This document shows, piece by piece, positions 25,469 through 62,285 of a stretch of DNA of 64,000 nucleotides. The notes beneath the pieces are model-generated. The model worked only from the letters and a program-made list of their open reading frames with translations, was not told where the DNA came from and did not search any database. Each line of letters opens with the position of its first letter. Within the stretch, counting starts at the first letter, position 1. The translations under genes were made by a program, and so were the position numbers. Source of the stretch: an uncultured Planctomycetota bacterium (GTDB taxonomy: Bacteria; Planctomycetota; Brocadiia; CAIUPP01); contig CAIUPP010000123.1 of NCBI GenBank assembly GCA_903901045.1, positions 62,001 to 126,000 of the forward strand, read 5' to 3'.

Positions 25469-28402
25469 GTGGAGCCAATCTCACGACGCGCGTTTCTCGG
25501 GCTTGCCGCGAGCGCGGGGGTCGCCATCGCCACGTCGCCCCCCTCCAAGCTTGCCGACCGGCTCATTCCCTACGTCAACCCCCCGGAGTATCCCCCCTCG
25601 GGGCAGTGGGCCACCTACGCGACCACCTGCCGCGAATGCCCCGCCGGCTGCGGAATGCACCTCTGGCACCGGGACGGGCGCGTGACCAAGGCCGAGGGGA
25701 ACCCGGAGCATCCCGTCAACTGCGGCGGACTTTGCGCGCGCGGGCAGTCCTCCCTGCAAGGGCTTTACGACCCGGACCGCCTGCGGGCGCCCCAGCGCAG
25801 CGGGGGGGCATTGGCTTCATGGCCCGACGCCATCACCTCCATTGGCGACAAACTGCGCAACAGGCGAGGGCGCGTGGTGGTTCTCAGCGACCTCCAGACC
25901 GGCGCGCTGCGCGAGGTAGTCGAATCCTTCGCTGCCGCATTCGGCGGCGCGGCGCTCTTCTGGGAGCCGATCAACTGCGAGGCGCTCTGCGGCGCTCATG
26001 ACGCGCTCTTCGGCCTGCCGCAGATTCCCGCCTTTCGCATGGAGCAGTGCCGCCTCATCCTGACCTTCGGCGCGGATTTCCTGGACACCTGGATTTCCCC
26101 CGTGGAGTACGCCGCCGCCTTCAGCCGGATGCACGCCTTCCGCGAGGGGGGAATGGGGCGCATGGTCTATGTCGGGCCGCGCTTGTCCATGACAGCCGGC
26201 AACGCCGACGACTTTCTCTGCGTCCCCCCGGGCGGAGAACTGGCCATCGCCGTGGAAATGCTCCGCGCGATAGCGGAGAAGGGCCGGCCGAAAGGGGACG
26301 CGCGCACCCTGACCGCGCACCTCAAGGCGCTTTCTGCGCGCGCAGGCGGCTTGCCGGAAGGCGTGTCCCGCGCCAGGGTCGAATCGCTCGCCCGCGCCTT
26401 TGTTGAATCCCCATCGAGCGTGGCGCTGGCCGGGCCCGCAGGGGGGAGCGGTTCGGCGGCGCGGGACCTCGCGATGGCGGCGGCGCTGCTGAATTACGCC
26501 GCGGGCCGCATCGGCAGCAGCATGGACTTCGCCGCCCCGCACGCGCTCAGCCGGGCCGCAGGAAATCGCCAGGCGGAGGCGCTGCTGGAGGGGCTGACGC
26601 AGGAGGATATTCTGTTCCTCCTGGGGGCCAATCCCGTCTACGCCTTGAACGGCGCTGAAGCGGCGCTGCGGCGCGCGGGCGCGGTGGTCTGCCTGGGGAC
26701 TATGCCCGACGAGTCGGCGGCTCTGGCGCATTGGACGCTGCCGGTCGACAGCCCGCTGGAATCCTGGGGGGACTACGAGCCGCGCGCCGGAGTCCACGGC
26801 CTCATGCAACCCACTCTGTCTCGGCTGCACAACAGCCGTCCCGCGGGGGATTTGTTTCTTGAAGTTGCCCGCGCGGCGGGCAAGCCGTTGGCGCGTCCCG
26901 GCGGGGCCGGCGCGCCGGAGAATTTTGAGCAATGGCTGCACCTGTGCTGGCGCGAGCTTCACGCGCGGCTGTCGCCATTGACGCCCTTCGATCTCTTCTG
27001 GCACGACTCCCTTCGCCGTGGGGGAGCGTATGAGAAGCCGGCGGAGGTCTCCGTGCAACTGCGCCCGGTCGCCGACAGCATGGTGGAGCGCGCTGTCCCA
27101 GCGCGCTTGGTGAACGATAGCCGGCTGGGGACAGCCGGCTCCACCACGACGGATGCGGAACTATGGGTCTGGCCCTCGGTAATGCTCTTCGACGGTCGCG
27201 TGGCGAACCGGGGCTGGCTGCAGGAAGCGCCCGAACCGACGACCTCGATCACCTGGGGCAGTTGGGTGGAACTCCATCCCCGCAAAGCGCGCGCCCTCGG
27301 GCTGAGCGATGGCGATGTGGTGGAAATCTCCAACGAGCGCGCGGCGATCGAACTGCCCCTCCTCGTCACCGAGGACGTGGCGGAGAACGTGGCCGCCGTT
27401 CCCCTCGGCCAGGGACACACCGCCCTGGGCCGCAACGCCACCCGGCGCGGCGCCAACGCCTTCCGTCTGCTGGGCGGCGTCGAGGGCCCCACCGCCTTTG
27501 GCCCCGTGAAGCTTCGCCCCGCCGGCCGTAGCGCGCCGCCGACCTCCGTCGCCCCCACCCAGGATCAGTACAAACGCGAACTTCTCCAGTGGATGCCCCT
27601 CGCGCGACTGCGCGCGATGAATCCCGGCGACGGCAATCCGGTGGTCCTCCCCTTGCCCGAGGGATTCGACCCCCGGCGCGACCTTTATCAGGGGCGCAAG
27701 TACGATCAGCACCGCTGGGCGATGGTGGTGGACCTTCATCGCTGCACCGGCTGCGGCGCTTGCGGCGTCGCCTGTTATGCCGAGAACAACATCGCCGTGA
27801 TGGGGGAGGAGCAACTCCGCGTCGGCCGGGAACTCGCATGGCTCAAGGTCGTTCCCTATCGCAAAGAGGGCTCCCGCCGGCTCGGCTGGCTGCCCATGCT
27901 CTGCCAGCAATGCGAATGCGCTCCCTGCGAGCCGGTCTGCCCCGTCTTCGCCTCGGTGCATGACGGGGAGGGGCTGAACGCGCAGGTCTACAACCGCTGC
28001 ATCGGCACGCGCTACTGCTCCAACAACTGCCCGTACAAAGTGCGCCGGTTCAACTGGCGCAACAACGAATGGCCCTCGCCCCTGGAGCGGCAGCTCAACC
28101 CGGAAGTGACCGTTCGCTGCCGCGGCGTGATGGAAAAATGCACCTTCTGCATTCAGCGCATTCGCAACGCCGAGCATGTCGCGAAGCGCGCCCGGCGGCC
28201 CGTGAAGGATGGGGATATCCTGCCCGCCTGCGTTCAGAGTTGCCCCACGCGCGCGCTGCTCTTCGGCGACCTGCTCCTCTCTGATTCGGAGGTGAGCCGG
28301 CTCACCCACAACGACCCGCGCCGTTATCACGTGCTGGAAAGCCTCAACGCGAAGCCTGCGATCACCTACTTGATGCGGATAGAGCAAGATGAGCCAGTCT
28401 GA
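25469..28402 (+). CDS. actB: Alternative complex III subunit B (molybdopterin-type domain fused to Fe-S domain)
   Basis: This 977-residue protein is the extracytoplasmic core of a quinol:electron-acceptor oxidoreductase. A Tat signal (SRRAFLG, residues 5-11) is followed by a molybdopterin-oxidoreductase-like domain beginning with a CRECPAGC cluster, then from about residue 745 a ferredoxin-like domain with four cluster motifs (CTGCGACGVAC; CQQCECAPCEPVC; CIGTRYCSNNC with CTFC; CVQSC). This fused order is typical of ActB. Residues about 538-560 (VERAVPARLVNDSRLG...) are encoded by palindromic repeats inserted in frame. The start is GTG 25469, preceded by GGAGGAAAG. The gene overlaps actC by 14 bases. 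Confidence 0.92.
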   Translation: MEPISRRAFLGLAASAGVAIATSPPSKLADRLIPYVNPPEYPPSGQWATYATTCRECPAGCGMHLWHRDGRVTKAEGNPEHPVNCGGLCARGQSSLQGLYDPDRLRAPQRSGGALASWPDAITSIGDKLRNRRGRVVVLSDLQTGALREVVESFAAAFGGAALFWEPINCEALCGAHDALFGLPQIPAFRMEQCRLILTFGADFLDTWISPVEYAAAFSRMHAFREGGMGRMVYVGPRLSMTAGNADDFLCVPPGGELAIAVEMLRAIAEKGRPKGDARTLTAHLKALSARAGGLPEGVSRARVESLARAFVESPSSVALAGPAGGSGSAARDLAMAAALLNYAAGRIGSSMDFAAPHALSRAAGNRQAEALLEGLTQEDILFLLGANPVYALNGAEAALRRAGAVVCLGTMPDESAALAHWTLPVDSPLESWGDYEPRAGVHGLMQPTLSRLHNSRPAGDLFLEVARAAGKPLARPGGAGAPENFEQWLHLCWRELHARLSPLTPFDLFWHDSLRRGGAYEKPAEVSVQLRPVADSMVERAVPARLVNDSRLGTAGSTTTDAELWVWPSVMLFDGRVANRGWLQEAPEPTTSITWGSWVELHPRKARALGLSDGDVVEISNERAAIELPLLVTEDVAENVAAVPLGQGHTALGRNATRRGANAFRLLGGVEGPTAFGPVKLRPAGRSAPPTSVAPTQDQYKRELLQWMPLARLRAMNPGDGNPVVLPLPEGFDPRRDLYQGRKYDQHRWAMVVDLHRCTGCGACGVACYAENNIAVMGEEQLRVGRELAWLKVVPYRKEGSRRLGWLPMLCQQCECAPCEPVCPVFASVHDGEGLNAQVYNRCIGTRYCSNNCPYKVRRFNWRNNEWPSPLERQLNPEVTVRCRGVMEKCTFCIQRIRNAEHVAKRARRPVKDGDILPACVQSCPTRALLFGDLLLSDSEVSRLTHNDPRRYHVLESLNAKPAITYLMRIEQDEPV
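27081..27146. repeat. Composite palindromic insertion inside actB (family B plus related unit)
   Basis: A family B unit (27081-27109) is joined to a second palindrome (AGCCGGCTG-ggga-CAGCCGGCT, 27119-27141) so that the whole 66-bp block starts TGGTGGAGC and ends GCTCCACCA. Its length is a multiple of three and it is read through in frame as 22 extra residues. Confidence 0.88.
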
Positions 28403-40287: not shown

Positions 40288-42207
40288 TCAGCCCGTGCGC
40301 GTGCGCAGGACGCGCGAATCTCCCTGCCGGATCGTCACCCCTTCGCGGTCGAGCGTTTCAAGCAGGGGGAGCAGGTACTTCCGGGAGGCCCCCAGCAGAT
40401 CCCGCGCCTGCGCGATGTTCATGCTCCCATTTCGGGCGATGAACTCCACCACCTTGCTCCGGCTTTGGTCGAAGACGCCGGGCAGGATGCAGATATCCTC
40501 CGCCAGCCGCCGGATCATCCCCGCCTCCGTCATCGCCTCAAGCACTCGCTTCTGCTCGGAGGAATTCAGAGCGGCCGCGGCCGCAATCTCCAGCGGCGGG
40601 GGGGCCGAGAGTCCGGACTGCGCGAGGCTCGAAAGTATTTTGTCCCGCGCCTGCGCATAGCGCCCCACCCACTGCGGCGAGTGGCCCGCCAGCGCCAGCT
40701 TCTCGCCTGAGGCGACGACCTTCTTCTGCTCCTGCAGGAGCGCCAGCGCGATGCGGAAACATTCCCGCGTCTCCGGCGACGGCGAGCTCGCCGCCGCCAC
40801 GGCATTGAGCGGAGCGAACGGCCTCAGCGGTTCCTGCGCGTGCAGCTTCGCCATGCAGGAGACGATGGCGGACTGCATCTCCTGCACCGCGCCGCTCCCG
40901 AACCAGAAGTCCTGCCGCCCGGCGCGCGCCTCCCCCTCGGCCTGGAACTGCTCAAGCACCCCGCGCAATTCCGTCTCCAGAACGCCGCAGAGCACCTGGA
41001 GCTTGTCCAGCCGAACCCCGCGCGCGCCCGCCTTGTCGAGGGTCTCCGCGACCGTCTCGGCCAGCGCCGAACTCTCGCGCTTCGCCACCTCCTCCGCCCC
41101 CGCGCGCTTCTGCCGTTTGGGGGGGTGCGCGTCCACAATCGCGCCCCCGCCGATGACGAACATCGGCGAGTACGACCGCATGACGAACGGATCGCCCGCC
41201 ACCGCCACCAGCGCGCTTTCCAGTCGCAACTGCACCAGCGCGGATTCCCCCGGCGGAAGGCTCTCCGTCTCCAGCAGCACCACGCGCGCCATCACCTCCC
41301 GGGTCTGGTGGTGAATCCGGACGCGCGTTCGCTGCCCCAGCGCGCGCGGCGCACGCGACGAAAGGTACAGCCGCGCATCCATCATCAGGCTGGGAGCCAG
41401 CGCGCCCGGCGTGGCCAGCACGTCCCCGCGCTCCAGATCCTCCTTCGACGCGTCGGCGAGGTTCACCGCCGCGCGCTGCCCGGCGAACACCTGCTCGACC
41501 GTCTCGTTGTGCACCTGGAGATTGCGCACACGAAGGTCGAGGCCCTTCGGCAGCGCGACGACGTTCTCTCCCGTCTTCAGGCTGCCCGAAATCACCGTCC
41601 CGGTGATCACCGTCCCCGCTCCCTTGAGGGAGAAAACGCGGTCGATGGGAAGCCGGAAGATTCCCGCCGCGCTGCGCGTGCGCACGCGGGCGGCGATCCG
41701 CGCAAGCTCCTCCTGAAGCGCGGGCAACCCCTCGCGCGTGACGGAGGAGACCGGGAGCACGCGCGCCTCTTCGAGGAACGTCCCCCGGGTGAGCGTCCGG
41801 ACCTCTTCGGTGACTTCGGCGATCCGCTCGGCGGCGGCCTTGTCGCTCTTCGTGAGCGCCACAACGCCGGTGGAAATCCCCAGCGCGCGCACCACTTCGA
41901 GATGCTCCACCGTCTGCGGCATCACCCCTTCGTCCGCCGCGACGACGAAGATCACCGCGTCGATCCCCGTCACCCCCGCCACCATGTTCCGCACGAACAT
42001 TTCGTGCCCCGGCACATCCACGATGGCGGCGGAATGTTTCAGCCCCGGCAGCGGGAGGAAGGCGAAGCCCAGGTCGATCGTCATCTCCCGGGCTTTCTCT
42101 TCGGCCAGGCGGTCGGGATCGGTGCCGGTCAGCGCCAGCACCAGCGAGGACTTGCCGTGGTCCACGTGCCCCGCCGTGCCGAAAATGACGTGCCGTTCCA
42201 CGCTCAT
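40288..42207 (-). CDS. selB: Selenocysteine-specific elongation factor SelB
   Basis: This 639-residue GTPase delivers Sec-tRNA to UGA codons that carry a SECIS element. The G1 motif GTAGHVDHGKSSL opens the protein, then DVPGHE (G3) and TKSD (G4). EF-Tu-like domains II and III follow, and from about residue 380 the C-terminal winged-helix repeats bind SECIS RNA (for example QSRSKVVEFIARNGSMNIAQARDLL). It overlaps selA by four bases and is cotranscribed with it. Confidence 0.95.
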   Translation of the reverse strand: MSVERHVIFGTAGHVDHGKSSLVLALTGTDPDRLAEEKAREMTIDLGFAFLPLPGLKHSAAIVDVPGHEMFVRNMVAGVTGIDAVIFVVAADEGVMPQTVEHLEVVRALGISTGVVALTKSDKAAAERIAEVTEEVRTLTRGTFLEEARVLPVSSVTREGLPALQEELARIAARVRTRSAAGIFRLPIDRVFSLKGAGTVITGTVISGSLKTGENVVALPKGLDLRVRNLQVHNETVEQVFAGQRAAVNLADASKEDLERGDVLATPGALAPSLMMDARLYLSSRAPRALGQRTRVRIHHQTREVMARVVLLETESLPPGESALVQLRLESALVAVAGDPFVMRSYSPMFVIGGGAIVDAHPPKRQKRAGAEEVAKRESSALAETVAETLDKAGARGVRLDKLQVLCGVLETELRGVLEQFQAEGEARAGRQDFWFGSGAVQEMQSAIVSCMAKLHAQEPLRPFAPLNAVAAASSPSPETRECFRIALALLQEQKKVVASGEKLALAGHSPQWVGRYAQARDKILSSLAQSGLSAPPPLEIAAAAALNSSEQKRVLEAMTEAGMIRRLAEDICILPGVFDQSRSKVVEFIARNGSMNIAQARDLLGASRKYLLPLLETLDREGVTIRQGDSRVLRTRTG

Positions 42208-43619
42208 GACGGGCCGCGCTGGAGGGAGTCGCCCACGCCTTGAAGCGCGGCCAGGATCAGCGGCTCCTCGCCCGGCAGGATCGTGCGCGGGTCCATCAGG
42301 ACGCCCTGCTCATGCACCCGCGCGAAGACCGGCGGGTCGCTCAGGCGCAGCCGCTTGGAGAGTTCCGCCGCGGCGATTCGCTCAGAGCGCAGGCGGACGC
42401 AGACCGTCGGAAGCGAATGCCCCGCGAACGACCCACCGCCGATCTCCGAGCGTTCCTCAATCGTATCCGCGTCGAGCCAGCCGGAACACCCCTCGCGGAC
42501 CAGTCGCGCCAGCTCTTCGGCGCGCCGCTGAATCTCCTTCACCGGCATGGCCAGCAGCGCCGTCACCCGATGTTCCTGCGGCAGGCGCTCCGCATCCAGG
42601 AACAGCCGCAGCGTCCCTTCGAGGGCGGAGAGCGTCAGCTTGCAAACCCGGAAAGCGCGGTAGAAGGGGTTCTTCCGCATCGCCTGGAGCGTATCGGTCT
42701 TGCCGAGAATGATGCCGCATTGCGGCCCGCCCAGGAGTTTGTCCCCGCTGAAGAGCGCGGCATCGACCCCGGCCGCGAGGCTCTCCGGCACGTTCGGCTC
42801 GTATGGAAGACCGTATCGCCGGTAATCCAGCAGCGCGCCGCTGCCCAGGTCGTGCACGCAGGCCACTCCCTTGCTGCGCGCCAGCTTCGCCAGTTCCGCC
42901 ACCGGCGGCTGCGACGCGAACCCCTCGATGCGGTAATTGCTCTGGTGCACCGCCAGGATCAGCGCCGTGGCGGGCGTGATCGCCTTCTCATAGTCGGCTA
43001 GGTGCGTGCGGTTCGTGCAGCCCACCTCGACCAGTTGGCAACCCGCGAGTTTCAGTATCTCCGGGATGCGGAACGAGCCGCCGATCTCCACCATCTCCCC
43101 GCGCGACAGGATCACCTCGCGTCCGGACGCCAGGGTATTCAGCACCAGCACCGTGGCCGCCGCGTTGTTGTTCACCACCAGCGCCGCCTCCGCCCCGGTG
43201 ATGCGCTGCAGCAGCCCCAGCACGTGGATCTCGCGGGGGGTGCGTTCGCCGGAATCGAGGCCGGCCTGGACGTTGCAGTAACCGGCCGCCGCCTCGGCCA
43301 GCGCCTCCTGCGCCGCCGCCGAAAGGGGGGCGCGCCCGAGGTTCGTGTGAAGCGCCACCCCCGTCGCGTTCACCGCCCGGCGCAGGCTCCGCGCCGACTT
43401 GCGCCGGTAAAGCTCCATCGCGCGCGCCGCGACGGCCTCCAGTGATGCCCCGGCGGAATCTTCTCCCGCCAGCAGGCGTTGCCGCGCCTCTTCGATGGCC
43501 TCTCTCGCGGCCTCGCGCGCCAGCGGACGATGCGCCTCCGCCAGCGCGGCCATCCTGCCCTGCGCCATCAGGTCGTCAACCCGCGGCAACCGGCGCAGCA
43601 GAGGCACCTTCTCTTCCAT
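42204..43619 (-). CDS. selA: L-seryl-tRNA(Sec) selenium transferase
   Basis: The 471-residue PLP enzyme converts Ser-tRNA(Sec) to Sec-tRNA(Sec) using selenophosphate. It starts MEEKVPLLRRLPRVDDLM, typical of SelA; the PLP lysine is in FSGDKLLGGPQ (about 294). INATGV-type (VNATGVALHTNLGRAPLS) and VVNNNAAA motifs are present. I chose the ATG at 43619, with GGAG six bases upstream; the open frame continues upstream through an interspersed repeat. Its ATGA stop overlap with selB is conserved in many sel operons. Confidence 0.95.
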   Translation of the reverse strand: MEEKVPLLRRLPRVDDLMAQGRMAALAEAHRPLAREAAREAIEEARQRLLAGEDSAGASLEAVAARAMELYRRKSARSLRRAVNATGVALHTNLGRAPLSAAAQEALAEAAAGYCNVQAGLDSGERTPREIHVLGLLQRITGAEAALVVNNNAAATVLVLNTLASGREVILSRGEMVEIGGSFRIPEILKLAGCQLVEVGCTNRTHLADYEKAITPATALILAVHQSNYRIEGFASQPPVAELAKLARSKGVACVHDLGSGALLDYRRYGLPYEPNVPESLAAGVDAALFSGDKLLGGPQCGIILGKTDTLQAMRKNPFYRAFRVCKLTLSALEGTLRLFLDAERLPQEHRVTALLAMPVKEIQRRAEELARLVREGCSGWLDADTIEERSEIGGGSFAGHSLPTVCVRLRSERIAAAELSKRLRLSDPPVFARVHEQGVLMDPRTILPGEEPLILAALQGVGDSLQRGPS

Positions 43620-43652
43620 GTCTCGCTCCGATGTAATGCGCCCGTTGCACGC

Positions 43653-43702
43653 CGTCATTGCGAGGAGGCTCCCCGCAAGAGCGCGAAGATTCCCCGCAAT
43701 GA
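43653..43702. repeat. Family F repeat upstream of selA
   Basis: CGTCATTGCGAGGAGGCTCC and the matching CGCGAAGATTCCCCGCAATGA form the ends of an imperfect inverted repeat in the leader of selA. Confidence 0.65.
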
Positions 43703-43731
43703 CCCGCACGTGACGGGCGCACCGCTCTTCC

Positions 43732-43763
43732 GACCGCGCAACGCGCGGTCATTGTCCCAACGT
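43732..43763 (-). promoter_or_regulatory. Putative SECIS stem-loop of the CD1871A-like gene
   Basis: On the minus strand, 13 nt after TGA 43766-43764, an 8-bp perfect stem (GACCGCGC with GCGCGGTC) carries apical loop GTT. The loop starts 21 nt after the TGA and its first base is G, which fits the described bacterial SECIS geometry. It also lies about 110 nt upstream of selA, where E. coli has a SECIS-like regulatory element, so a regulatory role is an alternative. Confidence 0.6.
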
Positions 43764-43892
43764 TCAGGAGAAGCAGAAATTCTGCGCGTTCTTCAGCACG
43801 TAACCGGCGTCGCCATAGCGCAGCCCGATGACGAGCATCGCCGCAAAAAGCGCCGCCAGCGCGCCCGCAATGATCCACGCTTTCTTATTCAT
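43749..43892 (-). CDS. CD1871A-like small membrane peptide, probable selenoprotein with CxxU motif
   Basis: The ATG at 43892 opens a peptide with one membrane helix (AWIIAGALAALFAAMLVIGL) followed by RYGDAGYVLKNAQNFCFS, then TGA (43766-43764), then ThrLeuGlyGln and a second TGA (43751-43749). From memory, CD1871A-family peptides have the same length and end VLxKAxNICLECIGIG; aligned with that, the in-frame TGA falls on the second Cys of CxxC. Read as Sec, the protein is 47 residues and ends CFSU-TLGQ. A SECIS-like hairpin lies at the right distance, and selA-selB follow directly. If the TGA is a stop, the peptide is 42 residues. It overlaps the preceding 4Fe-4S membrane protein gene by eight bases, the usual partner of this family. 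Confidence 0.72.
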
Positions 43893-44796
43893 CTTTCTCC
43901 GCCCTCCGCTCACTGACACTGACCGCCCGGCCGGCGAGCGTTGCGGAAAGCGCTCCCTCCTCCAGGCAGTTCCGAACGCAGTCCAGGCATAACACGCACT
44001 CCGCCGTCGCTTCCTTCCGCTTCTCGCCGACCGGCACGTGGCGGCACTCCGTCGGACAGACCTTGACGCACCGCATGCAGCGCGTGCACTTCTCCTGGTC
44101 CGTCCTCAGGCGCAGGAGCGAAATTCCCGACGTGAGCGCCATCAGCGCCCCCAGCGGGCAGAGCGCCCGGCAGAAACTCCTGCGCGCGATCACCGCCAGC
44201 CCCAGCACGAGCACCATCAGGCCGATCTTCGACCAGGTGCGATAAGAAGCGTGCGCGCGTCCTTCCGCATCAGTCGCCAGGTACGGCAGGCTCCCTTCGA
44301 GCGTTCCCGCCGGGCAGACCAGCGAGCAGTAATCCAGCGCGCCGGTCTGCTCGCCCGTGATGCGCGCGTTCGGCGTCGTGCCCTTGGCGCTCCCGAAAAT
44401 CAGCGGCAGCGCCAGCACCAGCACAACCAGCAGCGCGTACTTCAGCGCGTTGAACGCCTTCGGCATGCGCCATTTCCACGTGCGAATCCGGTACAGCATA
44501 TCCTGCAGCCAGCCGAACGGGCAGGCCCAGCCGCAGAAGGCGCGCCCCACGGCCACTCCGAGGAGTCCGAGCAGCCCGATGATATAGAACGGAATGCGCC
44601 GCACCAGCGCGAAGGCCGTCAAGCTGCCGATGGGGCAGGCCACCGTCCCCACCGGGCACGAGTAGCAGTTCAGCACCGGGATGCACAGCGCCTTGCCGCC
44701 GGGGCTCAGGAAGTAGCTGTTGAAGGCCGCGAGCGAGAGCAACTGGACCGGCATCCGCCGGCCCGTCCTCCCCGTTTCACTCCTGGATTGGCTCAT
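43885..44796 (-). CDS. Membrane-bound 4Fe-4S ferredoxin-type protein (YccM/NapH-like)
   Basis: The 303-residue protein has about five helices and several cysteine clusters: CYSCPVGTVACPIG near the start, FCGWACPFGWLQD, a third CSLVCPAG, CRALCPLGA, and two classical ferredoxin motifs (CTRCMRCVKVCPTEC and CVLCLDCVRNC). It probably moves electrons across or along the membrane. Its ATG overlaps the methyltransferase gene upstream by 20 bases, and the CD1871A-like peptide follows with an eight-base overlap, which suggests a joint redox function. Confidence 0.85.
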   Translation of the reverse strand: MSQSRSETGRTGRRMPVQLLSLAAFNSYFLSPGGKALCIPVLNCYSCPVGTVACPIGSLTAFALVRRIPFYIIGLLGLLGVAVGRAFCGWACPFGWLQDMLYRIRTWKWRMPKAFNALKYALLVVLVLALPLIFGSAKGTTPNARITGEQTGALDYCSLVCPAGTLEGSLPYLATDAEGRAHASYRTWSKIGLMVLVLGLAVIARRSFCRALCPLGALMALTSGISLLRLRTDQEKCTRCMRCVKVCPTECRHVPVGEKRKEATAECVLCLDCVRNCLEEGALSATLAGRAVSVSERRAEKDE

Positions 44797-45820
44797 CCTC
44801 ACCTCGAACGGCCTGTGTCATGGCGCGCAGATGTTCCGGCGGCGTCGACGGCACCAGCCCGCAGGCCGGCGAGACGATCTGGAACTCCCGCGCCGCTCGG
44901 CGCGCCGAGCGCTGTATGGCCGAAACCGGCCCGCGTTGCAGAAGGATCGCATCCACATTTCCGATGCGGACCACGCCGGGCAGCTCCTCGCGCAGCATCC
45001 GCCCGCTGACCATCGCATCCACGCTCAGCGCCAGCCCGCCGCCGAGGCCGTCGTTCAACTGCCGCAGCGGTTCCAGCACAGGGCGCACATCGCCACATAT
45101 ATGCAGTATATGCGGCGCGCCCCCCTCGCGCAAGGAGCGAAGAAGGCGCGTGAGCGCCGGCGCCGCGAAGCGCGCAAAATGCGCCGCGCCCAGGATCTCC
45201 CCGGTCGCCGAGGGCTCCGCAACCATGACGGCATCTGCCCCCGCGGCGCGTTGCGCCAGCGCGAATTGCAGAACGAACTCCTCCGTGCGCGCCAGCAGCC
45301 GGTCGACCGTTTGCGGTTCCCGCCGCGCCAGGCGGAAGAATATCCCCGCCTCCATAATCGTCGCCGCCAGCGTCACCGGCCCGACCAGCGCCCCGATCAC
45401 CGGGTTGGAGCCGGGGGCGGCCTTCAAGCGCCGCAGCGCCTCCAGGACCGTTCTAACCCTTGGCATCTTTTCCGGATTGAACTGCGGCAGGCCCTCGATG
45501 TCGGCGGCGCCCGCGACACTCTCGGCGAGCACGCAGGGAAGCACCTCGGGCGTGCCCAGCTCCACGCGGCAACCGAGCGCTTCGGCCTCGACCGTCATGC
45601 AGAAGGGGGCGGCGAGGCACTCGAAGCCCGACTCCTCCCGCGTCGCGAGAATCAGGTCGGCCATGGCCGCGGCCTCCGAATGCGCCCGGGGCCACCCGCA
45701 GCCCGTGCGCGCCATGGCGGAGGTGGTCGCCAGCGTCATCATCCCGCCGGGGCAGATCACCGGAGGAGGCTGGACGGCCTCGCCGGCCAGGGCGCTGAGG
45801 AATCGTTCTCGTGAGTTCAT
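44777..45820 (-). CDS. MtaA/uroporphyrinogen decarboxylase-family methyltransferase (second copy)
   Basis: The 347-residue protein has the URO-D fold of corrinoid-dependent methyltransferases. The zinc ligands His and Cys are in LHICGDVRP, and the third Cys is in VSPACGLVPSTP; these are absent from true HemE. It is likely to transfer a methyl group between a methyl donor or acceptor and the corrinoid protein encoded upstream. The start is ATG 45820; the open frame extends through repeats upstream but without homology. Confidence 0.85.
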   Translation of the reverse strand: MNSRERFLSALAGEAVQPPPVICPGGMMTLATTSAMARTGCGWPRAHSEAAAMADLILATREESGFECLAAPFCMTVEAEALGCRVELGTPEVLPCVLAESVAGAADIEGLPQFNPEKMPRVRTVLEALRRLKAAPGSNPVIGALVGPVTLAATIMEAGIFFRLARREPQTVDRLLARTEEFVLQFALAQRAAGADAVMVAEPSATGEILGAAHFARFAAPALTRLLRSLREGGAPHILHICGDVRPVLEPLRQLNDGLGGGLALSVDAMVSGRMLREELPGVVRIGNVDAILLQRGPVSAIQRSARRAAREFQIVSPACGLVPSTPPEHLRAMTQAVRGEDEPIQE

Positions 45821-46070
45821 GGGTTTCCTGCGCGTTGCGGCAGATGCGCGAATGACGAATGACGAAGCCCGAATGACGAAGGAAACGCCAATGACGAAAT
45901 GCCCGCGCGCCCCTTTCTTGAGGAAAAGGGGGTCAGGCAACTTTTCCAGCAGCGGAAAAGTAGCCAGACCCCTTTTCCCGCCCCTTTTCCCCCTGGGGCG
46001 TCGCAGGAGAGCCACGCTTTTCGAGCTGGGGGTTTTGGACATTCCTTCGTCATTCGGGCTTCGGCATTCG
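45821..46070. repeat. Repeat island between the two methyltransferase genes
   Basis: The gap is almost entirely repeats: family G units in opposite orientation at its ends (45849-45898; 46038-46075) enclose the family C hairpin (45922-45978, arms GGGGTCAGGCAACTTTTCC and GGAAAAGTAGCCAGACCCC). The methyltransferase stop at 46071 lies at the edge of the right family G unit. Confidence 0.85.
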
Positions 46071-47108
46071 TCATTTCATCTGCCCATATTCCTGCACCGC
46101 GCTCATCATGGCGTCGATGTTCCGGCTGGCCGTCGCGATGGGCACCTCGCAGCCGCTTCCCAGAATGAACCCCCGCGCGCAGCCGCGCCCGATATCGCAC
46201 AGCGTGCGGACCTCGCGCGTCACATCCTCGGCGTTTCCCTTCAGCAGCGTCTGAGTCGGGCGCACGTTCCCCATCAGCCCGATGCGCCCCCCGACGCGGT
46301 CGCGAGCCTCCGCCATGGAAATATCATCCAGGCTCAGCAGGTTCGCGTTCGTCCCCACCATCGCGTCCAGAATGCGGCTCGTCTGCCCGCAGATGTGAAG
46401 CACCGCGGGGCATCCCCGGCGGCTGATGGCGCCGTGCAACTCCTTCAGGCAGGGTTGAGCGAACTCCTCGAACATGCGCAGGCTCAGCACGCTCCCCGTG
46501 GCCACGGGGTCCACCACGACGGGGATTCCCCCCGCGTCCAGAATGTCGTTCGCGAAATCGCAGGCCGTGGCGGTGGAAAGCTTCAGAAGCTTCAGCGCGA
46601 GGACGCGGTTGCGGATGAGGTCGCGCGCGAACTGGTCCGTCCCCCGCAGGCAGGCCGCCGTGGTGAAGGGGGCCGGCACGCAGCAGGAGACCGGCACCTC
46701 CGAGCCCACGGCCGCGACGGCGACCCGCACCGCCTCGATGAACAGCGGCAGCCGCCCCAGCGTGTGCGCCTGCGTGGTGACGAGCCGGCTCAGGTCGCCG
46801 GGAATCGACACGGCGGGGCGCTCCACCAGCGGCACGTCATCCTCTTGAAAATCCAGCCCCGTCCCCATCGCCTCGGCGAGGATCGCGGTATCCGAGAAGA
46901 TGGCGATCAGATCGTGCCCGTACCGTCGCCACGCGTCGGCATGGCACTGCCCCATCAGCCGGCCATCGCGGTTGTACGCGCCGACCTTCACGCCGTTCAC
47001 CCGCGCGGCGTGGTTCAGAATGAGCGGCACGCAGAGAAAACGGTCCATCGGCTTCCCGGTCAGAAAAGCCGTGAACCGCTCCTTGGGGGTCATTGTGTCC
47101 TGGCGCAT
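46071..47108 (-). CDS. MtaA/uroporphyrinogen decarboxylase-family methyltransferase (first copy)
   Basis: The 345-residue protein is related to methylcobamide methyltransferases. Zinc ligands are in LHICGQTSR, with a further Cys in FILGSGCEVP. MTPKERFTAFLTGKPMDRF at the start is typical of the MtaA/CmuA group. It overlaps the corrinoid protein gene by 19 bases and is surely cotranslated with it. The methyl substrate cannot be told from sequence. Confidence 0.87.
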   Translation of the reverse strand: MRQDTMTPKERFTAFLTGKPMDRFLCVPLILNHAARVNGVKVGAYNRDGRLMGQCHADAWRRYGHDLIAIFSDTAILAEAMGTGLDFQEDDVPLVERPAVSIPGDLSRLVTTQAHTLGRLPLFIEAVRVAVAAVGSEVPVSCCVPAPFTTAACLRGTDQFARDLIRNRVLALKLLKLSTATACDFANDILDAGGIPVVVDPVATGSVLSLRMFEEFAQPCLKELHGAISRRGCPAVLHICGQTSRILDAMVGTNANLLSLDDISMAEARDRVGGRIGLMGNVRPTQTLLKGNAEDVTREVRTLCDIGRGCARGFILGSGCEVPIATASRNIDAMMSAVQEYGQMK

Positions 47109-47749
47109 GGCAGGCTCCTTGAAAGTCGGTCGGCCAGTTCGACGGCCTCCTTCGCGTTGCGCCCGAATCCGTCCGCATCGATCTCCGCGGCGAAGCGCGC
47201 GCTCGCGGACGCGCCCCCGATCATCACCCGGAAGTCCCCCCGCAGCCCTGCTTCCTTCAACCCGCGCACCACCCGCGCCATGTTCTCCAGCGTGGTGGAC
47301 ATGAGGCTCGACAGCCCGATAATTCCCCCTCCCGCCGCGCGCGCGGCCTCGACGAACCGCTCCGCCGTCACGTTGCGCCCGAGGTCGATCACCTCATACC
47401 CCGCGGCATCCAGCAGAATCTTGACGATGTTCTTCCCGATGTCATGGATATCCCCCTCGATGACCCCGAGGATCACCTTGACCGGTTTGCGCGTGGCGTC
47501 CGCCTTGATGTGCGGCTTCAGAACGGCGATGGCCGCGTTCATGGCGTCCGAGCAGATGAGGATCTCCGGCACGAAATACTCGCCGCTGTCGTAGAGTTCC
47601 CCCACCTTGCGCATCCCGGCGGAGAGTCCCTCCGTGATGGCCAAGTATGGGTCGAGCCCTTCTGCGACGACTCGGTTCGCCGCCGCCACCGCGCGCTCCT
47701 CATCCATGGCGACCACGGCGTTCGCCAGCTCTTTGTGAAGTGGATTCAT
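47090..47749 (-). CDS. Corrinoid (B12-binding) methyl-carrier protein
   Basis: The 219-residue protein has the N-terminal helical cap of methionine-synthase-type corrinoid proteins (about 1-85) and a cobalamin-binding Rossmann domain with EGDIHDIGKNIV (the His that ligates cobalt, about 100), LSSLM and MIGGAS. It shuttles methyl groups between the methyltransferases encoded downstream. I chose ATG 47749; an upstream ATG lies in a family A palindrome. Confidence 0.92.
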   Translation of the reverse strand: MNPLHKELANAVVAMDEERAVAAANRVVAEGLDPYLAITEGLSAGMRKVGELYDSGEYFVPEILICSDAMNAAIAVLKPHIKADATRKPVKVILGVIEGDIHDIGKNIVKILLDAAGYEVIDLGRNVTAERFVEAARAAGGGIIGLSSLMSTTLENMARVVRGLKEAGLRGDFRVMIGGASASARFAAEIDADGFGRNAKEAVELADRLSRSLPCARTQ

Positions 47750-47943
47750 AGGGGGTCCCAGCCGTTCTGTGAGAGGAAATGCGTCGAATCGTGCGCGCCT
47801 CGACCGTCCGCAGGGGCAAGGCATGCCTTGCCCCTACAACATCCTGGGCTTGCTGCGTCAGAACTCATGCGAATCGAATACGCCAGGAAGTTGGTGGAGC
47901 GCGCTGTCCCCAGCGCGCTTTGGAAATACGCCGCGCGGGAGAA
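47750..47943. repeat. Repeat-filled gap between the corrinoid gene and tRNA-Sec
   Basis: A family A palindrome (47813-47834) and a family B unit (47892-47921) lie here; the latter ends 22 bases from the 3' end of the tRNA gene. No coding frame is seen. Confidence 0.8.
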
Positions 47944-48041
47944 TGGCGAGAGCGTGTGGGAATCGAACCCACCAGGGACCTTATTAGGGCCCCGCACCGG
48001 GTTTGAAGCCCGGCAAGATCCACCAGGACCCATCCGCTCCC
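47944..48041 (-). tRNA. selC: Selenocysteine tRNA (anticodon TCA)
   Basis: The minus strand gives a 98-nt tRNA with CCA encoded. The D stem is six base pairs with a four-base loop (GGGTCC-TGGT-GGATCT), a selenocysteine tRNA feature. The anticodon arm is CCGGG-CTTCAAA-CCCGG with TCA in the loop. A long variable arm (GGGGCCCTAATAAGGTCCC) follows, then the T arm GTGGG-TTCGATT-CCCAC and the acceptor strand ACGCTCTC with discriminator G. The acceptor pairs over seven base pairs plus one G-A mismatch. It reads UGA as selenocysteine. Confidence 0.93.
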
Positions 48042-48224
48042 ATAACAGGGTTGATTGCGCGGAATCCGTAAGCAGGGGCGCGGCATACTGCACCCGCAGA
48101 ACGCCTTCCGATTTCCGCGTCGCAGAGCAATCGCTCCCCGTTCGCCGTCCGGAAACCAGACGGGCGCCGGAAGTGCACTCCTTCCGGCGCCCGAAAATTG
48201 CAGCGGCTCTATACAAAACAGCCC
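48042..48224. other. Spacer before tRNA-Sec with a strong hairpin
   Basis: No gene is seen apart from the hairpin at 48161-48193. The upstream side of the tRNA has no clear promoter, so the tRNA may be processed from a longer transcript. Confidence 0.4.
48161..48193 (-). terminator. Stem-loop after the exported-protein gene
   Basis: A perfect 13-bp stem (CGGGCGCCGGAAG paired with CTTCCGGCGCCCG) has a seven-base loop. It lies 32 bases past the distal stop of the exported protein. No T-run follows on either strand, so termination may need other factors or be partial, letting transcription reach tRNA-Sec. Confidence 0.55.
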
Positions 48225-49011
48225 TCAGCGCATGACGGCCGTCGTTTGACCTTTCACGATCCCCAGCGGGCCCGCGTCGATGGTCGCTTCGCACGTCACC
48301 TTGCCTTTGATCGCCACTCCAACGGAGTAGCAGGGGTTGCCCCCTCATGAGAAGCCGAAGGAACTGATCGGTTTCGCTACGTTCGCGATTTCCTTCCCGG
48401 CGCTGTCGGTCGTCCTCATCTGGAGGTTCACCTCCACGCCGTTCTTCTGCACACCCGTCAAATCCGCAGTGCCGGCCTTGAGATGCACCCCCACGCCCAG
48501 CGTGCGCGCGCTGTCCTTGGTCAAATCCTTCGTGGCCACTTCCAGCGTCAGCTTGTCCATCGCCGGGACATCCAGGACCACATCCTTCTTCTGCGCCTGC
48601 ATCCCGGCCAGAGTGGTCAGGTAGGTCCAGGGTATCTTCTCTTTATCCAGCCGAGTCACCTTCAGCATGGCGAGCACATAGGACTGGCCCTGCGCTTGGG
48701 GATAGATCATCACCTGCGCCTTCATCCCCGTGCAGCCGGTCGGAAGCATGTCGGCGGGAATCGGCAACGGCGTTTCCGCGAAGCGCGGGGGGGGGGGCGC
48801 CCTGCGACTTCAGCGCCGTCGCCGTAGCCACCCCTTCCAGCGTCGAGGCCATGCGCAACTCATTGCCATTGGCCTGAGCGAAAATCGTCACCTTGTCGGA
48901 TATTTTGAACTGGAAATTGATCACGCTCGGTGCGGCTGTAGCCCCTGAAACCCACGCACCAGCCACCACCGTTACGGCAGCCAACCATCGCCAAGTGCCT
49001 TTGTGCAGCAT
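48225..49011 (-). CDS. Exported protein of unknown family, frameshifted in a G tract, with in-frame TGA proposed as selenocysteine
   Basis: ATG 49011 (AAGGAG eight bases upstream) starts a signal peptide (WLAAVTVVAGAWVSGATAA) and a beta-rich exported protein. At 48787-48797 an 11-G tract (C on the coding strand) shifts the frame; with 10 or 13 bases the frame continues as PPPPRFAETPLPIPADML. This second frame reaches TGA 48347-48345 after ISSFGFS, and then continues as GGNPCYSVGVAIKGKV to TGA 48227-48225. Codons after the TGA keep G/C third positions. If read as Sec, U222 is followed by Cys 227 and Cys 240 in a 261-residue protein. A SECIS-like stem-loop follows the TGA. It lies between selD and tRNA-Sec on the same strand. 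Alternatively it is a decaying gene. Confidence 0.6.
48314..48344 (-). promoter_or_regulatory. Putative SECIS stem-loop of the exported protein gene
   Basis: On the minus strand, 14 nt after the TGA (48347-48345), a 7-bp stem CTACTCC/GGAGTGG (one T-G pair) holds the loop GTT, which starts 21 nt after the TGA. A smaller GGGG-GCAA-CCCC hairpin lies between. The loop sequence and distance are the same as in the element at 43732-43763. Confidence 0.55.
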
Positions 49012-49177
49012 GGTTGCGCTCCTTACAGAGTTTCCCCTCCGTGCATCCACTTCATTATACGTCGCATCGCCAGTGTGTCAAGAAAATCCGGCCTTTTCCT
49101 GCATTTAATCGCACGCTCGCCCGGACGCGTGCCGTATGTGGCACAGCCGCCCTCGGCTGTGCCGGTACAAGATGCCC

Positions 49178-50749
49178 CTACGCCGGCCCCTTCTCCTGCC
49201 AGAACATCATCGCCTTGCAGCCGCCGAAAGCGACCCCCATCCACGCCGCCTCGCGGACGCGCTCGGGCGCGATACCCAGGTTCCGGCATTTCTCCAGATG
49301 AATGCGCAGGCAGGGCTCGCACTGCACCGCCACCGAAAGCGCCACGATCATCAATTCCTTCTGAACGGCATCCAGCGTGCCCGGCGCGGTCACCGCCGCC
49401 ATGAACTGCTTGAACGCCTCCGGCGCGCCCGGCGCGGCGGGGGAGGCCGCCTGCGAACAACTCTCCGCCCCCGGCGCGCTCTCGACGCCGGAATGCGCGG
49501 CGCAGCAGGGCGACTGCTTGGCAGAAACTCTCGCCGGGGAATCCGTCTTCTTTCGGGTCACCACGATCTTCCCTTTCGATTTCTCGACCACCCGTCCGAT
49601 CACAGCCGCGTCGCGGCAGCCCGCGGCCCGCAACTGAGAGACCATCTCCGCAGCCTTCGCCTCCGGGAGCGCAATCAACAGCCCGCCCGAAGTCTGGGCA
49701 TCGTAAAGAATGTCCAGCGCGTGCTCAGGCAGCCCCTTCGCCGCCTCCACAAACGCGCCGGCGAACTCCCGGTTGCGTTCCGCCGCGCCGGAGCCGATCC
49801 CCTGCGCCGCGTACTCCGCAACCCCTGGCAGCAGCGGCATCGCTTCCCACCACACCTCCGCCGTCACCCCGCTCTCGCGCACCACGTGCCGCAGGTGGCC
49901 CAGCAGCCCAAACCCGGTGACGTCCGTGCACGCGTGCGCCCCCATCCGGACCATCACTTCGGAGGCGCTTTTGTTGAGCGTCGACATGGACAGCGCGGCG
50001 GCCCGCGCCGACTCCGCCGAGGCGCGGCCCATCTGCGCGGCGAATGAGATAATCCCCGTTCCGAGCGGCTTGCTCAGAATCAGCGCGTCCCCCGGCTGCG
50101 CCCCCGCGTTCGTCACAATCGCGTCCGGCCTCACCACCCCCGTCACCGCGAAGCCGAACTTGATCTCCTCCTCATTGATACTGTGCCCGCCCACCAGCAG
50201 CACCCCCGCCTCGTTCAGCTTGTCCAGTCCCCCCTTGAGCATCTGGTACATCGCCTCGTCGCCGAGGGTGTGGATCGGATAGCCGATAATGGAAAGGGCC
50301 GTCAGCGCCGCGCCCCCCATGGCATAGACGTCGCTCAGCGAATTGCACGCGGCGATCTGGCCGAACTGGTACGGATCATCCACGCAGGGGGCGAACACAT
50401 CCACCGTCTGTACCAGGCAGAGGTCGGGCGAAATCTGGAAGACCCCGGCATCATCCGCCGTCGCCAGCCCGACCAGCAGCCGCGGATCGCTGGCGGCGGG
50501 CAACCGCGAGAGGATCCGCGCCAGGTCCGCCGCGGGAATCTTCGACGCGCACCCCGCGTTCTTCATGCGCTTCATCAACCCCGGCTTCTCCGCCGAGAGC
50601 GGCTCCTCAAGCCGTTCCCCCGCGCAAAGGCAGACATCGCGCTGGAGGAAAATGTCGCACGGGCAATTCTTGCGCGGGTCGCAGATGCAGTGCCCCAGCG
50701 CCTTCGACCGGGCCATCACGCGCGCGCGTTTGGATGATGCTTCGGACAT
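49178..50749 (-). CDS. selD: Selenophosphate synthetase fused to an AhpD/CMD-like domain and a Cys-rich N-terminus
   Basis: The protein makes selenophosphate from selenide and ATP, the selenium donor for SelA. The SelD core (about 55-400) has the catalytic Cys and Lys in AGCASKIP, ATADDAGVF and VDVFAPCVDDPYQFGQI for metal and ATP binding. Before it is a cluster of CxC motifs (CICDPRKNCPCD, CLC; about 21-42). After it, from about 435 to the end (523), a carboxymuconolactone decarboxylase/AhpD-like domain has the CEPCLRIH redox pair. This three-part architecture may couple thiol chemistry to selenide delivery. AAGGA precedes the ATG. Confidence 0.9.
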   Translation of the reverse strand: MSEASSKRARVMARSKALGHCICDPRKNCPCDIFLQRDVCLCAGERLEEPLSAEKPGLMKRMKNAGCASKIPAADLARILSRLPAASDPRLLVGLATADDAGVFQISPDLCLVQTVDVFAPCVDDPYQFGQIAACNSLSDVYAMGGAALTALSIIGYPIHTLGDEAMYQMLKGGLDKLNEAGVLLVGGHSINEEEIKFGFAVTGVVRPDAIVTNAGAQPGDALILSKPLGTGIISFAAQMGRASAESARAAALSMSTLNKSASEVMVRMGAHACTDVTGFGLLGHLRHVVRESGVTAEVWWEAMPLLPGVAEYAAQGIGSGAAERNREFAGAFVEAAKGLPEHALDILYDAQTSGGLLIALPEAKAAEMVSQLRAAGCRDAAVIGRVVEKSKGKIVVTRKKTDSPARVSAKQSPCCAAHSGVESAPGAESCSQAASPAAPGAPEAFKQFMAAVTAPGTLDAVQKELMIVALSVAVQCEPCLRIHLEKCRNLGIAPERVREAAWMGVAFGGCKAMMFWQEKGPA

Positions 50750-60647: not shown

Positions 60648-62285
60648 TTACGGCTTGGCCCCGCCAGCCGGCCGGCCCAGAAGGTCCATGTTCTCGATTT
60701 TGAATGGCGTGACGTATTCCCTGAGGTTGTCATACATCTGCGCGAGGATGTGCGCCTGCGCCGGGAACTCCCCCTTGTGAATGAATGTCAACTCACACGT
60801 CTGGTTCATACTCATCGTTCCCTGCGGCTTGGCCTCGATCTCTCCACCCTGCGCATCCAGGAAACGGACCCCCTTGATCGCGTCGGAGGTTGCGTTGAGG
60901 GTCAGCACCAGTTCCGACGAACCCTCCTGCCAATCGCTCTTGCCGACGGACTTGATCGTCGAGTCAAGCTCTTTCCCCTTCGCATCCGCCTTCAGCGGCA
61001 CCGTCCCGAGGTCCACATCCTTTGTGCCGGCGGCCACCACGTACGTCAGCGTCCCGGAGAGTTCCCTGATCCCCTTGACGGCTGGGTCGGGCAACTCCGT
61101 CGCCACGTCAAAGCAGACGGTCACATGGTCCTCCGCCAAATGCGGGAAATGGATGCGGCGGTCCCATTCCTTGGCATGCAGAAGATTATCGCCGTTGTCC
61201 GCCACGGCGGTCTTCAATTCCCCCTCCTTCACGGAGAGCACCGAGCCGGGAAGTTCGCCGGCCAGAGAAACGCCATAGCCCTTCTCGTGCTGGAACGGGC
61301 GAATGCCTTTGTCGTTGTCGGTCTCGGTCGCGAGCAGCACGCCCACGACGCGCAGGTGCATGATCGCCCCGCCGGCGGCAGGGGGGGGCAGCGCGGAGGT
61401 TTCGTCCAGCTTCAGGCGCGCCTTCATCGCCGCGAAACCCGCCTTGGCCGCCGCCATCTCGGCGGCGTAGTCGAACTGGTTCTTCAGCGGCGCGCGGACG
61501 AAGGTCTGGATCGGGCCGCGCGTTCCGAAGAGCTTTTCGTTCAGCGCATTTCCCTGCGGGCCATCCTTCGCGAAGTCCGCCCCCGACGCGGCCTGCTCCT
61601 TCCAGAACGCCTCGTCGCCCGGGAGTTTGTTGAGCGCTTCGAGCATCTTCGGCCCGTCATACACGATCCGGACGGTGTTCGGCGCGCTGGCCACCTTCTC
61701 GAAATTGACCGTCTTCTCCGGCGCGCCCGGAAGCGCGACGGACCACTCGCTGCGATACTCCGCCAGCATCGCCGCGAACATCGGCAACTGCTGCTTGAAC
61801 TTGTTCTTTGCGTCGGTCGCGCGCTGTGCGATCTCCGCATCGCTCAGCTTGGCCGGCTCCGCGTGGGGCTTCTTGTCATCCCGAGTTACCAGCTCCAACT
61901 GCGCGCCATCCCCCTCCGCGCGCCACGCCAGCCGCATGTTCGTATTCGTGCTGCCATGGAGGCTCAGCTTGTTCAGGTCGCGGAAGTACGCCGTCCCTTT
62001 GAAAGCCAGCAGGCCGTCCTTGTCCACCTCGAACGAGACATCCTTCCAGGCGTCGACGCCGTCGGAATTCTCCAGTATCTTGGCCGCTTCCTTGCGCGCC
62101 TGCCTGGCGGTATCCTCCTTGCCCGTGCCGCCGCCGGACATGTCCATCAGCGGCAGGTGCGCCTCGTACACCACCCGGCCCGACCCGTCGGCGTTCAGCG
62201 TCGCCTCCCGCTTCTCCTTCAGACAGCCCGGCAGCATAATGGCCAGCGCCGCGCACATCGCCAACGCTCTCATCACCTTCTTCAT
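60648..62285 (-). CDS. Large lipoprotein of unknown function
   Basis: The 545-residue protein has a lipoprotein signal with lipobox MLPGC (Cys 21 or so), followed by KEKREATLNADGSGRVVYEAHLP, a start seen in other uncharacterised lipoproteins of planctomycete-like genomes. The rest is mixed alpha/beta with no recognised domain. The start is ATG 62285, after GGAG; the open frame extends further upstream through repeats but has no signal peptide there. Confidence 0.65.
   Translation of the reverse strand: MKKVMRALAMCAALAIMLPGCLKEKREATLNADGSGRVVYEAHLPLMDMSGGGTGKEDTARQARKEAAKILENSDGVDAWKDVSFEVDKDGLLAFKGTAYFRDLNKLSLHGSTNTNMRLAWRAEGDGAQLELVTRDDKKPHAEPAKLSDAEIAQRATDAKNKFKQQLPMFAAMLAEYRSEWSVALPGAPEKTVNFEKVASAPNTVRIVYDGPKMLEALNKLPGDEAFWKEQAASGADFAKDGPQGNALNEKLFGTRGPIQTFVRAPLKNQFDYAAEMAAAKAGFAAMKARLKLDETSALPPPAAGGAIMHLRVVGVLLATETDNDKGIRPFQHEKGYGVSLAGELPGSVLSVKEGELKTAVADNGDNLLHAKEWDRRIHFPHLAEDHVTVCFDVATELPDPAVKGIRELSGTLTYVVAAGTKDVDLGTVPLKADAKGKELDSTIKSVGKSDWQEGSSELVLTLNATSDAIKGVRFLDAQGGEIEAKPQGTMSMNQTCELTFIHKGEFPAQAHILAQMYDNLREYVTPFKIENMDLLGRPAGGAKP

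Follow-up and report, generated by a model that had tools for sequence, protein, structure and literature searches.

In-frame TGA codons followed by SECIS-like hairpins in two genes of a planctomycete selenocysteine locus

Do two in-frame TGA codons found in one planctomycete locus stand for selenocysteine (Sec), and to what kind of proteins would they belong? The locus lies in a stretch of 64,000 nucleotides (positions 62,001 to 126,000 of contig CAIUPP010000123.1, or C123:62001-126000; hereafter the window) from an uncultured Planctomycetota bacterium, whose genome comprises 4.77 Mb in 154 contigs. All the Sec-decoding genes, selA, selB, selD and tRNA-Sec, are present in the window. Sec insertion directed by a selenocysteine insertion sequence (SECIS) is an already known process. 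Two genes of the locus, here called gene 1 and gene 2, each contain an in-frame TGA followed by a SECIS-like hairpin (Table 1), and the analysis reported below makes Sec coding very likely at both codons.

The two TGA codons and their hairpins

A sequence-only reading of the window had pointed out that the apical loop of both hairpins is GTT and begins 21 nt after the TGA, which was confirmed for the codons at 43766 and 48347 on the minus strand. Its stem lengths of eight and seven base pairs were near enough: eight Watson-Crick pairs were recounted for gene 1 (43750-43743 with 43739-43732; nine with the outer U-G) and nine, including a U-G, for gene 2. Folded alone, the gene 1 and gene 2 hairpins have energies of -15.6 and -12.6 kcal/mol, respectively, and in neither case was this value equalled by any of 200 shuffles. 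In a 45-nt context, the gene 2 fold has a z value of -3.3. The Sec-decoding genes, which the same reading had placed in a 5-kb locus, actually span about 10.5 kb (40288-50749).

In order to express how rare this arrangement is, the exact geometry was defined as a 3-nt loop at 21 nt, with G as its first base and a stem of at least seven pairs. Within the window, it follows 2 of the 1589 TGA trinucleotides, namely the TGAs of gene 1 and gene 2 only. It was absent from 1089 TGAs of other loci in the same genome and present at 4 of 10,702 TGAs in 20 further stretches of that genome (400 kb), these four lying in short frames with 6-28 codons upstream. No instance was found at the TGAs ending open frames of at least 200 codons in the 20 stretches (0/375), nor in a second set of frame-ending TGAs (0/399). 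This background bears out the earlier claim that chance hardly explains the pair, and such hairpins are not frequent after ordinary TGA stops.

The same counts make it most improbable that both TGAs are ordinary stops, with hairpins that are fortuitous or terminator-like and downstream frames that are mere coincidence. Furthermore, the gene 2 domain carries on past the TGA, in the window as in the aligned relatives, and the gene 2 family is associated with selA, as detailed below. On the side of ordinary stops, gene 1 has just four codons past its TGA, too few to show a downstream coding signal, and a broader hairpin resembling a bacterial SECIS follows 52 of the 399 frame-ending TGAs. A general reassignment of TGA in this organism has a practically negligible probability: translated with table 11, selA, selB, selD and the remaining genes of the locus contain no internal TGA, and both tRNA-Sec and SelB are present. 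A genome-wide change of code was rejected on the first of these grounds.

The published model of the bacterial SECIS (bSECISearch), as given in PMC13188914, has a loop of 3-9 nt, a stem of 4-16 bp, a G among the first two loop positions, a UGA-loop spacing of 16-37 nt and a minimum free energy of -7.5 kcal/mol or lower. Both hairpins lie within this model, with 3-nt GUU loops at 21 nt, stems of 8-9 bp and the energies given above, and nothing essential differs; the gene 1 hairpin departs from it in lying mostly downstream of the gene's own stop. Since the position of the loop and its leading G are those expected by the model, the shared geometry is normal. The interpretation of the two hairpins as SECIS elements with Sec codons was supported by the background counts and still more strongly by the comparison with relatives described below, whereas the shared geometry lost its standing as a special sign, being ordinary in the published model, with a GTT loop that is not a trait of the gene 2 family.

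The family of gene 2

The initial search, covering 58 relatives, found two gene 2 relatives in a single genome (G012), both carrying one in-frame TGA, together with a weak row that lacks it. A search with a three-row alignment added a fourth member, also with a TGA. Four rows were then searched against 392 Planctomycetota genomes, which gave further rows, followed by a 15-row profile, which yielded 93 rows in 59 genomes; 92 of these rows were read. An in-frame TGA was present in 79 of the 93 rows, distributed over 51 of the 392 genomes, with up to seven family rows in one genome. Three TGA rows from the class searches (two in G012, one in G020) are additional to these. When a collection of genome contigs was searched with gene 2 as a single sequence, no match was obtained; the alignment search gave only two loci, in one Planctomycetota metagenome-assembled genome, RA.bin122.

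The motif around the codon is mostly YGUGG-like and reads YGUGGTCRYSWRVP in the best rows. Sec is the sole invariant column among 61 aligned TGA members; as these were chosen for their TGA, the invariance means that the TGA always falls in the same column and not that other residues are absent from it. Thirteen of the rows read have no TGA. By eye, three of them carry Cys at or near the Sec site (G129, G260:C17 and G426, the last in a genome with neither selA nor a selB over the cut-off), one has neither Sec nor Cys there (G123:C186:3545) and three end before the site (G119:C42, G157 and G290). The other six (G085:C32, G107:C124, G201:C22, G246, G390 and G109) were set aside as seemingly unrelated or devoid of the motif. 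A fourteenth row without TGA (G119:C60) lies outside the 92 read. The TGA-less rows of the four-row search (G411, G239 and G310, twice) were likewise rejected, being flagellin-like or unrelated by eye.

Hairpins were counted in the 81 members with enough sequence, one TGA row (G136:C73) being dropped as too short. For 56 of the 81, the best hairpin has its axis between +22 and +23.5, and for 11 at +26, one codon further on. Besides GTT, the loops include TGG, GGT, CGTGC and others, and the exact form, a 3-nt loop with leading G at 21, occurs in 2 of the 81, gene 2 among them; GUU at 21 nt is thus one form of several. A strict criterion combined an axis at +22 to +23.5 with a stem-score threshold and a G at loop position 1 or 2. 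It selects 42 of the 81 members, compared with a mean of 3.6 after synonymous recoding (maximum 9 in 50 runs) and with 8 of the 399 frame-ending TGAs. The axis range had been picked after the family sequences were viewed, which speaks against taking this figure at face value, and the count was therefore repeated on the rows outside the 15-row profile. In this fairer comparison, the criterion selected 29 of 66 held-out rows, against 2.4 after recoding (no more than 6 in any of 200 runs). Thinning at 80% identity left 49 rows, of which 22 were selected, against 1.6 after recoding.

Where the axis lies at 23 (33 rows), the pairs from 15-31 to 20-26 persist, each in two to four Watson-Crick types. 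In these rows, 90% of positions are paired, compared with 31-50% in slid registers, the former value being inflated because the rows were selected by their hairpin. In G107:C85, the peptide after Sec is different (GGTAQCVWNA) and an 8-bp stem is still there.

The distribution of the family tends to follow that of the Sec machinery. The gene selA occurs in 46 of the 51 TGA-bearing genomes, the figure for all genomes being 245 of 392 (hypergeometric p 2.5e-6, with kinship between genomes not removed), and selB scores over the cut-off in three of the five lacking selA. A selA position was entered for 33 genomes, and in 11 of these a family gene is found no more than 20 kb away from it. The order in G012 is that of the window: family gene, tRNA-Sec, selA, selB. 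At two sites beside SelD/SelA (L185:1009 and L189:11484), relatives of gene 2 were seen with an extra Cys three residues before Sec (CVTU and CVGU).

In gene 2 itself, 39 codons separate Sec from the stop. By eye, its N-terminus resembles a signal peptide, from which export of the protein would follow. AlphaFold modelled a 179-residue piece with a mean pLDDT (the program's own confidence score) of 83.7 as mostly beta, with Sec141 after the strand 126-133. Compared with Ig-like or FN3-like sandwiches, the model gave middling Z scores, up to 7.9 over 87 residues. This predicted fold would be shared with many proteins, such as the adhesin repeat 6xi3; the scores are typical of a common arrangement, and homology is not established by such a match. 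Foldseek returned nothing at E of 0.001 or lower with the model, and the sequence search of the PDB gave two matches, at E 0.03-0.05. The C-terminal domain of gene 2 is accordingly described as Ig-like in a predictive sense. A redox role with the Cys of U-x4-C is possible for Sec in such a domain, as is that of a metal ligand.

Gene 1 and the weighing of both codons

Gene 1 would encode a small membrane protein, MNKKAWIIAGALAALFAAMLVIGLRYGDAGYVLKNAQNFCFSUTLGQ, which ends at a second TGA; its ATG overlaps the 3' end of the gene for a NapH-like polyferredoxin. With the model NF040920 (CD1871A) of NCBIfam, Cys members were detected in four Planctomycetota genomes, three above the cut-off and one just below. 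The tails of these Cys relatives are CLECIGIG or CRECIGIG, and in all four genomes a NapH-like gene then follows. Gene 1 has in common with CD1871A a short N-terminal membrane helix, a tail of the type ...VL-KA---C--C/U and a NapH-like 4Fe-4S neighbour. It differs in that the second Cys is replaced by Sec (CFSU, in place of the C-terminal CxxC called for by NF040920), in the tail TLGQ instead of IGIG, and in its position after, not before, the NapH-like gene. In an alignment with the four Cys relatives, the Sec of gene 1 falls in the column of their second CxxC cysteine, over a short protein with identities of 27-36%. By these sequence features, gene 1 is a putative Sec relative of the CD1871A CXXC peptides.

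Further small membrane proteins, whose C-terminal tail is CPTU, CSTU or CTAU, were seen in sel neighbourhoods, mostly adjoining NapH-like genes (L177:9950, L186:13538, L189:6044, L192:6330, L195:14587 and L216-L221). SECIS-like hairpins follow their TGA. A four-row profile of this CPTU-tail family found 7 rows in 149 genomes, and each of the six that were read, two of them sources of the profile, meets a TGA exactly where CxxU has its U. No match was obtained in NCBIfam or Pfam, for which four and two members were scanned. These proteins would constitute a second selenoprotein family, apparently undescribed.

Taken together, we consider it very likely that both TGAs are Sec codons and that their hairpins are SECIS elements for the SelB of the locus, the gene 1 product being presumably coupled to the NapH-like protein and that of gene 2 presumably exported. 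Directly observed are the geometry and its rarity, the constancy of the Sec column, the maintenance of the stem and the joint occurrence with selA; Sec insertion itself, binding by SelB, export and a redox role are deductions. SelA and SelD would make Sec-tRNA-Sec, with which SelB would be loaded; loaded SelB would recognise a hairpin that starts about 12-14 nt past the TGA and exposes an apical G-U loop 21 nt away from it, and UGA would be decoded as Sec through this SECIS. Gene 1 would then be a membrane peptide with a CxxU tail and gene 2 an exported protein with Sec in a loop of the Ig-like domain (U-G-G-x-x-C).

Several observations pull the other way. In the family, 39 of the 81 rows miss the strict hairpin criterion and 22 of the 81 a broad one, and two genomes with TGA rows, G275 and G328 (77 and 72% complete), have no selA or selB over the cut-off. 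Gene 1 reached 15.2 bits (E 0.014) with NF040920, for a cut-off of 32, and is for this reason considered a relative and not a member of CD1871A. Its fold in a 45-nt context is weak (z of -1.8; 10 of 200 shuffles equal it), and a five-row search of 75 genomes of the class found no second Sec form; the search with gene 1 as a single sequence returned itself and rows taken as chance, and so did the five-row search. Finally, this assembly interrupts the frame of gene 2 at a homopolymer.

The points on gene 1 lead to an alternative in which gene 2 alone is a selenoprotein, while the TGA of gene 1 really ends translation and the hairpin there has some other function, for example in termination or regulation ahead of selA. 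The shortness of the gene, its low score, the lack of another Sec form in the class genomes and the overlap of the hairpin with the second TGA stop all fit this alternative. We nevertheless regard it as very unlikely, since Sec takes the place of the second Cys of CxxC, the NapH-like partner of the Cys relatives is retained, and the similar CPTU-tail proteins reach a TGA at the same point, with hairpins after it.

The broken frame could mean instead that gene 2 is a decaying pseudogene in this genome, its SECIS being the relic of a once functional element. The frame indeed changes at a run of 11 G (48787-48797), a break on which the sequence-only reading was silent. Such a homopolymer in a metagenome assembly is, however, probably the site of an assembly error; the stem is intact, the domain downstream is conserved, and the three closest relatives read in one frame. 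The pseudogene explanation is therefore unlikely, and Sec coding in both genes remains our interpretation.

Neighbouring genes and meaning of the locus

On the minus strand, the genes follow each other in the order SelD-AhpD fusion, gene 2, tRNA-Sec, corrinoid protein, two MtaA/MtbA-like methyltransferases, NapH-like polyferredoxin, gene 1, SelA and SelB.

Table 1. Features of the Sec locus, in coordinates of the window
Feature	Position	Strand	Details
SelB, C-terminal winged helix	40288..42207	-	TIGR00475 E 8e-107; PF09107
SelA	42204..43709	-	TIGR00474 E 2e-157
Gene 1 SECIS-like hairpin	43731..43751	-	loop GTT 43742-43740, 21 nt past TGA; overlaps gene 1 stop codon
Gene 1, putative small membrane protein	43749..43892	-	47 aa; Sec43; TGA 43766-43764; stop TGA 43751-43749
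NapH-like membrane polyferredoxin	43885..44802	-	immediately precedes gene 1 and overlaps it; PRK09477/TIGR02163 under cut-off; Fer4_5
MtaA/MtbA-like methylcobamide:CoM-type methyltransferase	44777..45820	-	NF004889 above cut-off
Second MtaA/CmuA-like (URO-D) methyltransferase	46071..47108	-	
Corrinoid protein, methyltransferase type	47090..47746	-	TIGR02370; B12-binding domains
tRNA-Sec	47948..48041	-	anticodon TCA; Rfam RF01852 69 bits; ARAGORN
Gene 2	48225..49011	-	in-frame TGA 48347-48345 (...FGFSUGGNPCYSVGV...); stop 48227-48225; frame broken at G run
Gene 2 SECIS-like hairpin	48312..48332	-	loop GTT 48323-48321, 21 nt past TGA
11-base G/C run	48787..48797	-	gene 2 shifts frame; assembly error suspected
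SelD with C-terminal AhpD/CMD domain (fusion)	49178..50749	-	

No credible NCBIfam or Pfam family was found for the gene 2 family across 61 members. An inventory of 2026 counts 119 known prokaryotic selenoprotein families in its Table 1 (PMC13188914), in the accessible part of which no entry was seen for NF040920, for a YGUGGxC Ig-like family or for the CPTU-tail family. The two genes of the window would resemble the known families in that source in having Sec at UGA and a SECIS downstream. Literature searches, which reached part of the relevant texts, gave no description of the gene 2 or CPTU-tail families; selenoproteins are reported for two marine planctomycetes in the accessible text of PMC4807772, and some overlap of the gene 2 family with these is possible. 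As far as the searches reach, the gene 2 family, with its predicted Ig-like and exported proteins, and the CPTU-tail family are apparently new.

What seems novel is a family reached through one TGA, in which a predicted exported beta-sandwich domain has Sec as its invariant residue and few Cys forms. Gene callers that take TGA as a stop would truncate these genes, and pipelines dependent on Cys homologues would be likely to miss them, a dependence that the authors of deep-Sep state as a limit of their own method in PMC12013277. As most characterized selenoproteins are described as thioredoxin-like in PMC13188914, a Sec in an Ig-like domain raises the question of extracytoplasmic chemistry, whether redox or metal-based.

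A corrinoid protein and two methyltransferases sit within the sel locus (44777-47746). Near selA and selB in another genome (G105, L178), a family gene, a corrinoid protein, both methyltransferases and SelD are consecutive; the other 20 loci compared gave no corrinoid or methyltransferase match. At a guess, this set is tied to methylated selenium. A wider and rather doubtful proposal would join these elements in a sel-encoded envelope system of planctomycetes, in which the NapH-like polyferredoxin would pass electrons to the membrane selenoprotein with the CxxU tail (in the window CFSU; elsewhere CPTU or CSTU) and this in turn would keep reduced the Sec of the exported Ig-like selenoproteins. 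The corrinoid methyltransferases of the window and of the G105 locus may feed or use selenium in such a system, for instance by demethylating methylated selenium compounds.

The SelD-AhpD/CMD fusion (49178-50749) has a Cys-rich N-terminal stretch, HCICDPRKNCPCDIFLQRDVCLCAGE, and what we take to be its catalytic site carries Cys, not Sec, by eye. Several planctomycete sel loci also show long SelD matches, of the same length as the SelD of the window. The only known selenoprotein family searched for in the source genome was Fdh-alpha, which gave three partial matches below the cut-off and without TGA. One of these (25622-25861) lies in a 987-aa open frame devoid of TGA, which is perhaps another molybdopterin enzyme.

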